From NCBI GenBank assembly GCA_030156945.1, contig JASGLT010000009.1, positions 1 through 64,000 of the forward strand: a DNA stretch of 64,000 nucleotides, given 5' to 3'. The notes beneath the pieces are model-generated. The model made no database searches, was not told the origin of the DNA, and worked only from the letters and a program-made list of their open reading frames with translations. Position numbers and translations under genes: made by a program. This DNA comes from Thermococcaceae archaeon. Lineage in GTDB: Archaea; Methanobacteriota_B; Thermococci; Thermococcales; Thermococcaceae. Shown here one piece after another: positions 734 through 52,667 of this stretch. Within the stretch, counting starts at the first letter, position 1; each line of letters begins with the position of its first letter.

Positions 734-1369
734 ATGAAGATAATATGGTATGGTCATGCATGCTTCTGGATTGAAATGAACGGGGTTAAATTGCTGATAG
801 ACCCTTACCCTGAAGTAGACGACGAGAGGATAGGAGAGGTGGACTACATACTAATCACCCACGAGCACACGGACCACTACGGAAAGGTTGAGCTGCTCTC
901 CAGACTCAGGGATGCAACAGTCATAGGGCCAAAGCCGGTCTATCTTATGGCCGTGAGCGATGGTGTGACCAAGGTTAGAGAGATTGAAGCCGGCGAGACT
1001 ATAGAGCTTGAGAACGGAGTCAGAGTTACTGCCGTTTATGTTGAACATCCATCAAGCCAGTACCCCCTCGGATACCTCATAGAGAACGAGAAGAGGGTCT
1101 TTCACGCTGGAGATACCTACTCCACACCCGCCCTCCAGAGACTGAGGGGAAAAGTGGACATCCTCCTAGTCCCCATAAGCGGGCGCTCTACCGCCAACGA
1201 AAGGGAAGCGGCACAGATAGTCGAGGACATAAGGCCCCGTGTTGTAATACCCATGCACTACGGCGTCTACGGCGAGGGTGACCCCCAAAAGCTCAGGGAA
1301 GAGCTGCAGAGAAGGAGGGTCTGGGCACTCGTCAAGGAGCTCAAGCCCTACGAAGAGCTGACCCTTTAG
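734..1369 (+). CDS. MBL-fold metal-dependent hydrolase (COG2220/UPF0173 type)
   Basis: A metallo-beta-lactamase-fold hydrolase of 211 residues. The signature THEHTDH (residues 37-43) supplies the dinuclear metal ligands; further ligands are GD in FHAGDTY and the histidine in PMHYG near the C-terminus. The N-terminal [12 protein letters not shown] pattern is typical of the small archaeal and bacterial UPF0173/UlaG-like group, whose substrate is generally unknown. The start is well supported by GGAGG at 721-725, eight bases before the ATG, with a TATA-like TACTTTAAGG upstream near 690. Its stop lies directly against radB, so the two are probably one transcript. Confidence 0.82.
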
Positions 1370-10933: not shown

Positions 10934-12250
10934 TCAAGAGAGCAGGAACCTCCACAGCGGGAGGCATCTGACGTTTATCCCCTTCACCCTATCCTCGCAG
11001 GACTTCCAGCCCGTCACCACAGTTCCTTCGCTTAAGCCAAACTGTTTCGCCGCCTCGACAAGGCCCTCCACCTCCCGCTCCCAGCTCTCGTCAACGTCCC
11101 AGCTCACCTGAACGAGCCTCGATACCCTCAGATTGGCCCTCACCACGAAGTCAACCTCGTGGCCATTCCTGTAGTAGAAGACGTTCTCCCTCCCGTACCT
11201 CTGTACGAGGTGCCTCGCCACTGCATTTTCCGCCAATCTCCCTATGTTCTCTGTGAACCGCGTTATCATGACGTTGGCCAGCCCGGTGTCAACGGCGTAG
11301 AGCTTCTTCGGATACCTCCTGACGTCCTTCACCTTTGGCGAGAGGATTGGAACCCTGTGGATAAGGTAAGCCTCCTCCATTGCGTCGAGGACTGAATCTA
11401 CAAGGTTGGGGGAGACCTTCCTTCCGACTATACCAGAGACCTCGTTCCTCAGCCTTGATGCGCTAACGAGGGAGGAGAACCTGCTCAGGGCCAGCTCGGC
11501 GACGAGCTTGACGAGCCTCGCGTCCCTGAAGCCGTGGCGGTAGGCAACGTCCCTAAGGATTATTCCCTCGAACAGTTCCCTCAAAAGCTCCCTCTTTAAT
11601 CCCTCGTCATCGGTTAGAACAACCTGCGGGAACCCGCCGAACTCAAGGTACTCCCTTAAGGCCCTCTCAACCTCCCCCCTCCTTCCGAGAAGGGCAGGGA
11701 GCTCGGTGGGGAGCCCCTTGAAGGAGAGAAACTCTCTGAATGAGAGGGGGTAAACCTCTGTTACTAAAACGCGTCCGGTTAAGAGGGTTGCAAGCTCGGA
11801 GCGGAGGAGGGAAGAGCTCGACCCGGTTACTATGACCTCGGCTTCACCCAAATCCAGAACCTTCCTGACCCACCGCTCCCAGCCCTCGACGTTCTGGACC
11901 TCGTCGAGAACCACCACGGGTCTAGCTCCCCTTGAAACGTAGGTCTTAAACGCCGAGAAGATCTCTTCCAGAAGCTCCAAGCTCAGGTGTGGATAGAACC
12001 TCGGCTCCTCAAGGTTCACGTAGAGCGTCTCCTCCGGCGGAAGGCCCTTCTCTATCAGGACCCTCAGGTACTGCCGGGCTAACGTGGTCTTGCCCGCCCT
12101 CCTAACCCCCACGAGAGCCAGGGCGTTCCCCGTGGAGAGCTTTCGTCTTATGTCCTTAAGATAATCCCCTCTCGTGATGCCTGTATCCTGCTCTCTACCC
12201 CAAAAGTTGTAGGGGGCAAGCACCTCAATAAGCTCTTCCCGGCTCAGCAT
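10934..12250 (-). CDS. AAA-type ATPase with DUF4143 domain
   Basis: 438 residues, COG1373-type. Walker A ALVGVRRAGKTTLA is near residue 45 and Walker B RPVVVLDEVQN is near 110-120, followed by VIVTGSSSSLL. A winged-helix-like middle and a C-terminal DUF4143 domain follow, with HEVDFVVRANLRVSRLVQVSW. That is the decayed PD-(D/E)XK-like segment, with Lys replaced (QVSW). These solo ATPases are frequent in archaea, are patchily distributed and have no proven function. The start ATG at 12250 sits one base from a promoter palindrome. It is adjacent to a MntA/HepT pair. Confidence 0.85.
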   Translation of the reverse strand: MLSREELIEVLAPYNFWGREQDTGITRGDYLKDIRRKLSTGNALALVGVRRAGKTTLARQYLRVLIEKGLPPEETLYVNLEEPRFYPHLSLELLEEIFSAFKTYVSRGARPVVVLDEVQNVEGWERWVRKVLDLGEAEVIVTGSSSSLLRSELATLLTGRVLVTEVYPLSFREFLSFKGLPTELPALLGRRGEVERALREYLEFGGFPQVVLTDDEGLKRELLRELFEGIILRDVAYRHGFRDARLVKLVAELALSRFSSLVSASRLRNEVSGIVGRKVSPNLVDSVLDAMEEAYLIHRVPILSPKVKDVRRYPKKLYAVDTGLANVMITRFTENIGRLAENAVARHLVQRYGRENVFYYRNGHEVDFVVRANLRVSRLVQVSWDVDESWEREVEGLVEAAKQFGLSEGTVVTGWKSCEDRVKGINVRCLPLWRFLLS

Positions 12251-12251
12251 T

Positions 12252-12304
12252 TTATATCACAGAAAATATAAGAAAGGTGGGTTTTTATATTTTTCGCAGT
12301 ATAA
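12252..12304 (-). promoter_or_regulatory. Tandem 20-bp inverted-repeat boxes at ATPase promoter
   Basis: Two boxes, read on the plus strand as TTATATCACAGAAAATATAA (12252-12271) and TTATATTTTTCGCAGTATAA (12285-12304). Each has TTATA/TATAA arms. Reverse-complementing one gives 15 of 20 matches to the other, and all five differences are transitions. Centres are 33 bp apart. The TATA box (AAAAATATAAAAA on the gene strand) is inside the distal box, and the proximal box abuts the start codon. Confidence 0.6.
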
Positions 12305-42990: not shown

Positions 42991-43074
42991 GTGTAGTTGA
43001 AATACACACTTTCTTGCTATTTTGTGTATTTCTAATACACAAGCTTTAAATACTATCGTGTATTATTTTTACAC
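42991..43074 (+). promoter_or_regulatory. Triple 17-bp operator array at ATPase promoter
   Basis: Three copies of a 17-bp inverted repeat: GTGTAGTTGAAATACAC (42991-43007), GTGTATTTCTAATACAC (43024-43040) and GTGTATTATTTTTACAC (43058-43074). Centres are 33 and 34 bp apart, about three helical turns. The middle box is a perfect palindrome with 9-bp arms when extended to 43022-43042. The TATA box CTTTAAATAC (about 43044-43053) lies between boxes two and three, and box three touches the start codon at 43075. Confidence 0.8.
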
Positions 43075-44337
43075 ATGGTGGGGCTGAAGGAGATAACCCT
43101 TGAGTACATAGGCGCTCTTGAGTACGTCGAGGAAATCCCGCGGGAAGTTGAGATACCGTACGTAGATGACATAAAGGCCATAATCGGACCGAGGAGGGTT
43201 GGAAAAACTTTCCTCATGCTGAAAAAGGCAAAGAGTATGCTGGAAAACGGCAATAACGTTCTCTACCTTCCGCTCGACGAGCCCGAGCTGGCAAGAATGG
43301 ACGCAAGGGAGCTCGCCGAAGAAGTCAGGAAGGAGTATCCAAGCGGAAAGGTCACCCTGTTTCTCGACGAAGTTCAGGAGTGGAGGGACTGGGACAGAAA
43401 ACTCCGCTGGCTCCACGACGTTAAAGACTTTGACTTATACGTCTCAGGCTCCTCGTCAGCACTCCTCTCCTCTGAGATACCCACGAGGCTCAGGGGAAGG
43501 CACGTCTCACGGCTCGTACTTCCCCTGTCGTTTAGAGAGATTACCGGAACCATCAAAGCCGAGACGTTCAGGGAGAGGGGAAGGCTGAAAGCCCTTTTGG
43601 AGGACTACCTGAAATGGGGGGGCTTTCCCGAGGTTTGGAAGACCAGGTCAAGGGAAAAGGTCATCTCGATCCTGGAAACGGTTCTTTACAGGGACATAAT
43701 AGAAAGGTTCTCCTTCCGGGACGTCGGAGAGTTCAAGGAGGTCTTCTACCACGTCCTATCTCTTTACGGGAGCTATTTCACATACCGCTCACTCCAGAGG
43801 AGCCTGAAGGCCCTGGGGCTGGAGCTAAATTTGAAGACCTTGATAAACTACCTCAGCGCCATGGAAAGCGCTTTCCTGATATTTCAGCTCCCCCTCTTCA
43901 GTCCCTCCCATAGAAAGACGCTCGTGAATCCGAGGAAGCTCTATCTTGTGGACACCTCATTCACGAACCTGTTCTTTAAGGGAGAAGATGTAGGCAGAAA
44001 AATCGAAAACATTGTTTTCCTCGAACTCCTGAGAGAAAAGAGCTACTTCAACCCAATGATTGACCTTTCTTACTATTCCGACGGAGAGAGTGAAGTTGAC
44101 TTTGTCGTGAGGGAAGGAAACGCCGTAAAAAAACTGATACAGGTAACCTACGAGCTCAACGCATCAAACTACGAGAGGGAGGTTTTAGGCCTTGTTAAAG
44201 TTGGGAAAAAGCTCAAGTGCGACGATTTGACGCTTGTAACGATGGATACCGAGGACAAGATAAAGGAAAGGGGTAAAGAAGTCAAAGTAGTTCCGCTGTA
44301 CAAGTTTTTACTTGAAAAGAGACAGAAAAAAGCATAA
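43075..44337 (+). CDS. AAA-type ATPase with DUF4143 domain
   Basis: 420 residues, COG1373-type. Walker A is AIIGPRRVGKTFLM (about 36-49), Walker B is KVTLFLDEVQEW, and YVSGSSSALLSSE is the sensor region. A winged-helix-like middle (TYRSLQRSLKALGLELN) precedes the C-terminal DUF4143 with SEVDFVVREGNAVKKLIQVTY, where the expected nuclease lysine is absent. Expression appears tightly controlled by three operator boxes. Function unproven; distribution of the family is patchy, as for mobile or defence genes. Confidence 0.87.
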   Translation: MVGLKEITLEYIGALEYVEEIPREVEIPYVDDIKAIIGPRRVGKTFLMLKKAKSMLENGNNVLYLPLDEPELARMDARELAEEVRKEYPSGKVTLFLDEVQEWRDWDRKLRWLHDVKDFDLYVSGSSSALLSSEIPTRLRGRHVSRLVLPLSFREITGTIKAETFRERGRLKALLEDYLKWGGFPEVWKTRSREKVISILETVLYRDIIERFSFRDVGEFKEVFYHVLSLYGSYFTYRSLQRSLKALGLELNLKTLINYLSAMESAFLIFQLPLFSPSHRKTLVNPRKLYLVDTSFTNLFFKGEDVGRKIENIVFLELLREKSYFNPMIDLSYYSDGESEVDFVVREGNAVKKLIQVTYELNASNYEREVLGLVKVGKKLKCDDLTLVTMDTEDKIKERGKEVKVVPLYKFLLEKRQKKA

Positions 44338-50630: not shown

Positions 50631-51106
50631 CTAAACCTCTCCCACCTCTCTCAAAACTTTTTCATAAAGCTCCTCACTTAAGCAGAAGCCCGTGGCCCTC
50701 AGCCTTTCGAGTTCTTCCCTCAGGCTTTCGATTTTCCCCTGAAACTTCGCCCTAAGGAGAATACAGTGGTTCCGGCAACCTTAAGCCCCAACGCCCTCGC
50801 CACTTCCCGGCCATCGTAGTCATCAATCAGAACCAGCTCGGCGTTCCTTTCGAGGGCAAGAACTATCGCCTCGCTCTCACCTTCGTCCAGCTCGAGCATA
50901 AGGGTACGCTTCAGCCTCTCGTCAGATATCTTCTCAACTTTTATCCATCCGGCGTTCTTAATCGCCAGTGCGTCTTCGCTCTCACCGCCTTCGATAACGC
51001 ACTCTTTGTAAACTGCTTCGGGTATCACAATCTCCCCAAATAACTCCCTAAGAAGTTCGAGCCTCTCAATCTTGGCAAGGTGGATGAGTGGAGTAGAGTC
51101 ACTCAC
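50631..51106 (-). pseudogene. DUF3368 PIN-like toxin, frameshifted
   Basis: A VapC-like PIN protein of the DUF3368 family. The frame from GTG 51106 carries SDSTPLIHL, LDEGESEAIVLALE and LVLIDDYDGREVARALG with the acidic catalytic residues, up to VAGTTV. One base is then missing near 50762-50764: the next frame continues in family style (ILLRAKFQGKIESL, GFCLSEELYEKVLREVG) to the stop at 50631. Restored, it is about 156 residues. As written the frame ends early at 50720. The start overlaps the antitoxin stop. Either a sequencing error or an inactivated toxin. Confidence 0.75.
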
Positions 51107-51347
51107 CGCGGGCAAAGGCCAGATCCTCCTCAAGCTCCTTCTCAGTGTAGTGCCTTGGGACTTCCCTCTTGGCCAGCTCCTCAAGGAACTCCCGCTTGGT
51201 AAGTCCTGCAAGCTTAGCCGACTTCCCTAGAGGGAGAATGCCCCGCTGGTAGAGGATAACAGCTAAGTCAATCCTCAGCTCCCTCTCAACTTCTCCCCTC
51301 GGAAGCTTCATGGCTGTGATGACGTCCTCGGGAATTACTATCTCCAT
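51099..51347 (-). CDS. UPF0175 family antitoxin
   Basis: 82 residues. UPF0175 proteins are small helix-turn-helix-like antitoxins paired with DUF3368 toxins. The diagnostic run is LAVILYQRGILPLGKSAKLAGLTKREFLEEL. I choose the ATG at 51347 (MEIVIPED) with GGTGG upstream; the longer frame covers the promoter. TATA-like GATTAAATATT is at about 51376-51386 on this strand. It is divergent from the ATPase gene at 51489, sharing the 141-bp operator region. Confidence 0.82.
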   Translation of the reverse strand: MEIVIPEDVITAMKLPRGEVERELRIDLAVILYQRGILPLGKSAKLAGLTKREFLEELAKREVPRHYTEKELEEDLAFARGE

Positions 51348-51399: not shown

Positions 51400-51479
51400 A
51401 GTTCTCGTGGATTAATGCCATACTTGTGAGAACTCTCGCTTCTCAACCCTTATAAACCCTTGAGAACTATGAGTTCTCA
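51400..51479 (+). promoter_or_regulatory. Tandem 19-bp operators between antitoxin and ATPase genes
   Basis: TGAGAACTCTCGCTTCTCA (51427-51445) and TGAGAACTATGAGTTCTCA (51461-51479) are inverted repeats whose centres are 34 bp apart; the second has perfect 8-bp arms. The rightward TATA box CTTATAAACC (about 51449-51458) lies between them, so the second covers the ATPase transcription start. A further AGTTCTC half-site is at 51400-51406, nearer the divergent antitoxin promoter. Confidence 0.75.
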
Positions 51480-51488
51480 GGTGTTGGC

Positions 51489-52667
51489 ATGAGGCTCGGT
51501 GATTTAACATACATGAACCCATGGTGGGAGGGGAAGAAAGACTACCACGTGAGGCGCTGGAAGGAGCAGAAAATTCGCTGGTTCCCTGGATGGATAGAGA
51601 AAATCTCACTAAAGCCCTTCTCCCTCAACTTCGTTCTTGGTCCCAGGCAGGTCGGAAAGACAACGGGAATAAAACTCCTCATCAACGAAATCCTGAAGGA
51701 AAATCCCCCCGAGTCCGTTCTTTACATTAACGTTGAAGTCCTGCCGAGCTATAAAGAGCTCTCCAAGCTTATCCGTGAGTTTCAGGAGCTGAAGAGGGAA
51801 GAGGGAATAAAAACCGGCTACATCTTCCTGGACGAGGCCTCATCACTTGAAGGCTGGTGGAGAGGAGTTAAACCGCTCATTGATGCTGGCCTTCTGGAGA
51901 ACGACGTTGTAACTGTTACAGGCTCAAGCTCACTCCGGGTTAAGAGGGATATCGAGCTCTTTCCTGGAAGGAGAGGCAACGGGAAGACGATTGAGGTCAT
52001 GACGCTTTCATTTCCAGAGTACGCAAAGGTCATGGGGCTTAAAAATCCCAGACTGGAAAGTGAGGGAGTCATCAAGCTCTTTGAGGAGTACCTACAAACC
52101 GGCGGTTTTCCAGGTTCAATAAACGGACTTCCAATGGACGAGCTCCTCGGGGCATACATCGGAGAGTTCGTCCGCTTTGGAAAGAGCCTTGAGATAGCGA
52201 AGGAGACCTTCGCAGCGCTGATAAGGAGCGCGCCCTCGGCAACGAGCTTCAGGGCGCTCTCAGAGATGACATCGGGGTACTCCTACAAGGTCGTTCAGGA
52301 CTACATCGAGTTTTTCAGGGAGTTATACATCCTCGGAATAGCTTACCTCAAGCAGGGCAACCAGGTGCTTTACAAAAGAGAGAAGAAGTTCTTCTTCAGA
52401 GACCCGCTACTCGCGAGACTGTTTTCAACATGGAGCGGGACGGAGCTTAGGGAGGATGCCCTCTACGAATGGATTGTTCAGGAGCATGTTTTCAGAAAGT
52501 TCGGAGAGGTTTACTACTTCAGAAACGCTTACGAGGTGGACGTCGTTGCAGACAATCTGAAAATCAAGGTAAAAGCTGGGAAAGCCCACAGGAAATATCC
52601 AAGGGACGTAAAGGTTCTGGAAAAAGAGGAAGTGCCATTCTTCCTCCTGGAACTCACTCCCCCATAA
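51489..52667 (+). CDS. AAA-type ATPase with DUF4143-like domain
   Basis: 392 residues. Walker A is VLGPRQVGKTTGI (about 49-61), Walker B is TGYIFLDEASS, and VVTVTGSSSLRV is the sensor region. A middle winged-helix-like segment (ATSFRALSEMTSGYSYKVVQDY) precedes the C-terminal nuclease-like fold, with NAYEVDVVADNLKIKVKAG retaining a lysine at the expected position. It lies beside a UPF0175/DUF3368 toxin-antitoxin pair and has tandem operators. Its 3' end overlaps yjbQ by 14 bp. Function unknown. Confidence 0.85.
   Translation: MRLGDLTYMNPWWEGKKDYHVRRWKEQKIRWFPGWIEKISLKPFSLNFVLGPRQVGKTTGIKLLINEILKENPPESVLYINVEVLPSYKELSKLIREFQELKREEGIKTGYIFLDEASSLEGWWRGVKPLIDAGLLENDVVTVTGSSSLRVKRDIELFPGRRGNGKTIEVMTLSFPEYAKVMGLKNPRLESEGVIKLFEEYLQTGGFPGSINGLPMDELLGAYIGEFVRFGKSLEIAKETFAALIRSAPSATSFRALSEMTSGYSYKVVQDYIEFFRELYILGIAYLKQGNQVLYKREKKFFFRDPLLARLFSTWSGTELREDALYEWIVQEHVFRKFGEVYYFRNAYEVDVVADNLKIKVKAGKAHRKYPRDVKVLEKEEVPFFLLELTPP

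Follow-up and report, generated by a model that had tools for sequence, protein, structure and literature searches.

Archaeal regulators that repress their own genes by blocking the core promoter are known, among them LrpA of Pyrococcus furiosus and MDR1 of Archaeoglobus fulgidus, the latter with several operators by its start site. The array of palindromes analysed herein resembles both systems, in that its putative operators lie over and beside the TATA element and the start of the regulator's presumed own gene, where repression would act by blocking the transcription machinery. Whereas LrpA and MDR1 are small dedicated transcription factors, the presumed repressor here is an AAA+ ATPase of 420 aa that also has a nuclease-like domain, and no two paralogues have the same operator sequence.

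Pfam places the gene clearly among the AAA_14/DUF4143 (COG1373-type) ATPases, whose function, to our knowledge, is not known. Among the related DUF234/ATPase_2 archaeal ATPases, the one member tested (L093) lacks such an array. Orc1/Cdc6 and STAND ATPases share with our protein an AAA+ core with a winged helix, and Orc1 binds repeated boxes, but the structural similarity is low (TM-scores 0.2–0.4), and the boxes here lie at promoters and are paralogue-specific. AbiEi, from a toxin-antitoxin system, autoregulates by binding cooperatively to inverted repeats of the promoter that drives it (PMC7319586); no second gene, however, consistently accompanies the ATPase here. Searches of the open-access literature on AAA_14, DUF4143, COG1373 and DUF234 ATPases, and on archaeal ATPases under autoregulation, returned no description of such operators or of self-regulation by this family, although a paywalled one is possible, and the family-wide rule of paired palindromes described below is, as far as we found, unreported.

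Box array and core promoter

The window, a 64,000-nucleotide stretch of a Thermococcaceae archaeon (contig JASGLT010000009.1, positions 1 to 64,000), contains three exact GTGTA-N7-TACAC palindromes upstream of the ATPase gene (43075–44337, plus strand). Box 1 (GTGTAGTTGAAATACAC, 42991–43007), box 2 (GTGTATTTCTAATACAC, 43024–43040) and box 3 (GTGTATTATTTTTACAC, 43058–43074) are centred at 42999, 43032 and 43066, with spacings of 33 and 34 bp, and box 3 stops one base before the ATG at 43075. An earlier, sequence-only reading of the locus had described three boxes of equal length at these spacings, the last touching the start codon, and this description proved exact. A TATA-like element (TTTAAATA, 43045–43052, plus strand), assigned by archaeal promoter rules, occupies positions −30 to −23 from the ATG, a distance that fits the leaderless start expected there. 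The same reading had all three boxes bracketing the TATA box, which is true of boxes 2 and 3 but not of box 1, which lies further upstream. The core design is thus a pair, comprising box 2 as candidate distal operator, which adjoins the BRE/TATA region and is kept in orthologues, and box 3 as candidate proximal operator, whose position against the ATG is likewise kept; box 1 is an extra of a few close Thermococcus relatives. On a paired-palindrome score with a maximum of 42, where 29 served as the threshold for counts, the promoter reaches 39, while dinucleotide shuffles reach 29 at most and none of 200 equals the observed value.

The box is unique to this promoter. A search of the whole genome (2,079,360 bases, 53 contigs) for the same box elsewhere returned three exact matches, all of them here, and the reversed-pattern control returned none; the GTGTA box therefore defines no regulon. 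With one mismatch allowed, 35 palindromic sites were found genome-wide, compared with 18 in the control; they are dispersed and for the most part GC-rich, and this search likewise revealed no clear regulon. A regulon of one global factor was rejected, as the box is unique and the boxes of paralogues differ. Isolated exact matches occur in other Thermococcaceae genomes, and those inspected were coding sequence or relics.

Conservation with the gene and layout across the family

Ten other Thermococcus genomes have orthologues of the ATPase at 68–94% identity, and all of these are preceded by the same GTGTA boxes, the proximal box always abutting the ATG. Loss of the boxes from orthologous promoters, which had been named beforehand as an outcome that would count against the proposal, was therefore not seen in these genomes. 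At four loci (L046, L047, L052 and L053) the upstream gene differs and the boxes are kept, which ties them to the ATPase gene rather than to its surroundings. Box 1 is restricted to the closest relatives, being intact in G024 and imperfect in G032. Two further genomes, G028 and G001, lack the ATPase altogether, with the flanks joined from ~43028 to ~44349 in window coordinates. Behind the same LigB-like gene, both retain a perfect box 1 and a decayed box 2 (L073 ~1045–1125; L074 ~1027–1096, reverse strand), and from their sequence these empty sites look like the remains of deletion.

The genome itself provides a second comparison. A family profile search identified 11 members and one weak DUF234/ATPase_2 relative (L093). 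All 11 promoters score 29–39 with 11 different palindromes, and L093 scores 24. The threshold of 29 was reached by 6 of 356 other promoters, taken from ~464 kb of the same genome with the first ATG of long ORFs as start, compared with 11 of 11 family members (Fisher p 3.5e-17). Two of these pairs, at L088 and L090, are weak, being equalled by 5 and 1 of 200 shuffles, respectively.

Two of the other members lie in the window. An AAA_14 ATPase paralogue (51489–52667, plus strand) is served by TGAGAACTCTCGCTTCTCA and TGAGAACTATGAGTTCTCA (TGAGAACT...TTCTCA; 51427–51479), 34 bp apart and unique in the genome. This gene was not listed in the DUF4143 search; it appeared as the top background promoter (score 39) and was only afterwards recognised as the eleventh member. 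When its boxes and those of L089 were searched genome-wide, a single one-mismatch site was found beyond their own promoters. A small ORF adjoining this gene (50720–51211, minus strand) resembles a PIN-domain protein in sequence. The third instance comprises two 20-bp boxes, TTATATTTTCTGTGATATAA and TTATACTGCGAAAAATATAA, 33 bp apart on the minus strand at 12252–12304 (coordinates worked out from score offsets), upstream of a DUF4143 ATPase with its ATG at 12250 and a profile match at 10937–12166 (minus strand).

The window array is one instance of a broad rule for AAA_14/DUF4143 ATPases. Of the 133 family genes scored, 108 have upstream of them a pair of 15–21 bp palindromes, spaced by 32–35 bp and in most cases reaching the start codon, in a sampling that is uneven and mostly Thermococcaceae; these 108 reach a score of 29, and 95 reach 32. 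The layout extends over Thermococci, Thermoproteota, Brockarchaeota, Culexarchaeota and Micrarchaeota. In most members the promoter is enclosed by two or three palindromes that match one another, while the palindrome sequence is peculiar to that member. Among 42 non-redundant cases, in a search that allowed 30–37 bp, the spacing was 32 (2 cases), 33 (13), 34 (21) or 35 bp (6). The proximal box mostly ends no more than 3 bases from the ATG, and otherwise ~30–34 bp above it, a distance that accommodates one more phased box. The remaining 25 promoters (~19%) have no clear pair and include one whole clade with SxNTLYSYF recognition helices (among L114–L131, L137 and L140), which nevertheless has a strongly conserved promoter (GAGGGAAACTTTTTAAGGATTTT).

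Geometry is shared and sequence is not. Homologues in other archaeal phyla have the same layout with other palindromes, including GTGGAnTATnATTCCAC, GTTTCCTAGTAGGAAAC and ACTCATTnnnAATGAGT. Among homologues at 44–61% identity (Thermococcales, Thermoproteota, Brockarchaeota, Culexarchaeota and Micrarchaeota) the palindrome is mostly GTGGAnTATnATTCCAC, with GTTTCC...GGAAAC at L054 and L056 and ATAC...GTAT at L025. A paralogous Thermococcus clade carries GGTAC...GTACC, and class-level relatives in another taxonomic family carry ACTCATTnnnAATGAGT. The ATPase at L055 (genome G075), which has GTGGA boxes, has its reading frame interrupted near Walker A, possibly as a pseudogene or through a sequencing error.

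Bacterial plasmid relatives have repeats in some cases, with a geometry less clean than the archaeal one: operator-like inverted repeats lie upstream of L188, L190 and L191 (e.g. TTTTGTATAGTACACAAAA) at a spacing of 39–42 bp. L190, on a plasmid of Arcobacter cloacae, is a DUF4143-type ATPase gene located between cas3 and cas4. A Treponema plasmid carries a further DUF4143-type ATPase, L187, inside a type I restriction system, with hsdR on one side and the DNA methyltransferase gene on the other.

Predicted structure of the ATPase and proposed autorepression

Both Pfam domains score well above their cut-offs in the 420-aa protein encoded at 43075–44337 (AAA_14, 109.7 bits against 27; DUF4143, 68.7 bits against 28.1). 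Residues G38, R40, R41, G43, K44, D98 and E99 are invariant in 39 sequences, so that Walker A (GxRRxGKT) and Walker B (LDE) motifs are present. Sequence searching found no solved relatives. An AlphaFold model built from 39 relatives (mean pLDDT 90.6) comprises an AAA+ core (~32–160), a winged helix (~217–291) and a nuclease-like α/β domain (~329–407). When the whole chain was compared with the PDB using Foldseek, Orc1 with DNA, DnaA and STAND ATPases came out on top, at low TM-scores of 0.2–0.4.

The winged-helix region attributed to DUF4143-type ATPases in the sequence-only reading is predicted here with high confidence. It is modelled with helices at 217–229 and 237–246, a recognition helix at 253–265 and strands at 269–272 and 287–291, and retains a pLDDT of 92 when modelled alone. 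Among PDB folds it comes nearest to Fur, MarR and PadR regulators, a similarity of modest significance (E ~0.01 at best, TM-score ~0.68), and the paralogue L089 gives weak HTH_5, HTH_IclR and GntR sequence matches at the same position. The modelled C-terminal domain looks nuclease-like. Of the PD-(D/E)XK set, D342 is invariant, and the expected lysine is a threonine here (QVTYE), with EVK in the paralogues L089 and L091.

The pattern calls for a regulator that invariably accompanies the gene, is paralogue-specific and has a DNA-binding domain, and the ATPase, with its predicted winged helix, combines all three properties. We consider it probable that the boxes serve the ATPase itself as operators in a private autorepression loop. 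This self-repression had been suggested beforehand, and on indirect evidence it is the best-supported reading, given that the boxes are kept with the gene, the box is unique in the genome, the 11 paralogues have different boxes and a winged helix is predicted. The role of the ATPase as binder, a repressive effect of binding and cooperativity are inferred. The protein would bind the boxes, probably as one dimer per palindrome, via the winged helix, which has the ATPase domain on one side and the nuclease-like domain on the other. Since boxes 2 and 3 flank the TATA element and run to the start, their occupancy would block loading of TBP, TFB and RNA polymerase at the leaderless promoter, holding the gene low. 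As the boxes are about three helical turns apart (33–34 bp, ~3.1–3.2 turns), neighbouring dimers would lie nearly on one face of the DNA and could bridge. This 33–34 bp phasing is kept across the family. Paralogues in one cell would not cross-regulate, because each family member has its own palindrome. Derepression by nucleotide state or a bound signal is plausible, though speculative.

The boxes might instead be operators of a separate transcription factor, local or global, as palindromes adjoining archaeal TATA boxes are generally typical of ordinary archaeal repressors. This we regard as improbable: the box is unique in the genome, the combination of eleven paralogues, eleven boxes and one geometry would need as many dedicated regulators, and inspection of the loci covered showed no gene that regularly accompanies the ATPase. 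An unrelated global regulator, the other case set against self-repression in advance, does not fit, since the box is unique and the 11 paralogues have different boxes at one geometry. A toxin-antitoxin module was also rejected, with no partner gene linked and neighbours that vary between lineages (by inspection).

The ATPase could also be the binder and yet use the boxes as a recognition address for DNA processing, as an Orc1-like initiator, a partition protein or a targeted nuclease, with promoter overlap as a side effect. The whole-chain fold similarity to DnaA and to Orc1/Cdc6 bound to origin DNA, together with the nuclease-like appearance of the C-terminal domain, speaks for this role, but a replication or nuclease site need not hold the fixed position relative to TATA and ATG seen in most cases, and up to 13 family genes per genome are too many for origins; we judge it very improbable. 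Selfish or mobile-element ends travelling with the gene, to which its varied neighbourhoods and precise-looking losses might point, were rejected as scarcely credible, because the boxes are confined to the region upstream of the gene and its 3' end has none, and the empty sites of G028 and G001 retain box 1 and a decayed box 2, as a deletion would leave.

Private autorepression by the ATPase would also bear on a widespread family, of which one Thermococcus genome can hold as many as 13 recognisable copies. The palindrome pair of its own that precedes nearly every copy is the first handle on this family known to us, and the pattern predicts both specific DNA binding by these ATPases and the exact site for each. 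If true, it would provide natural pairs of orthogonal repressors and operators in hyperthermophiles, where such tools are scarce. A tentative and rather unlikely extension casts the AAA_14/DUF4143 ATPases as a large archaeal family of switches that recognise themselves and are insulated from one another. Operator and recognition helix would co-diverge after each duplication or speciation, and each copy would stay silent until its ATPase state is altered by a signal, for which foreign DNA or a viral protein might serve; this change would release the gene and, with it, the nuclease-like domain.

Recognition helix and box sequence

Co-variation between protein and box was scanned in 42 proteins. 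The partial correlation is 0.12 for the winged helix (permutation p 0.046) and 0.18 for the recognition helix, against 0.02–0.05 for the other domains, and single 7-residue windows in the ATPase domain score equally high. The scan is mildly supportive of the ATPase as binder; singling out the recognition helix window by window was rejected, as the scan is too confounded by relatedness.

In the clade of the window's ATPase, residue 252, where the recognition helix begins, tracks the box, with aspartate accompanying GTGGA or TGGAA (~20 loci), asparagine accompanying GTGTA (12 rows) and serine accompanying GTTTCC (2), a co-variation that comprises few independent switches. This residue may set specificity. 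In a tree built without the recognition helix, L055 is a basal Thermococcales member and has aspartate with GTGGA, as in other phyla. The aspartate/GTGGA state is therefore probably ancestral, and the asparagine and serine states probably arose together with new boxes. In Micrarchaeota, an SPTT motif goes with ATAC...GTAT.
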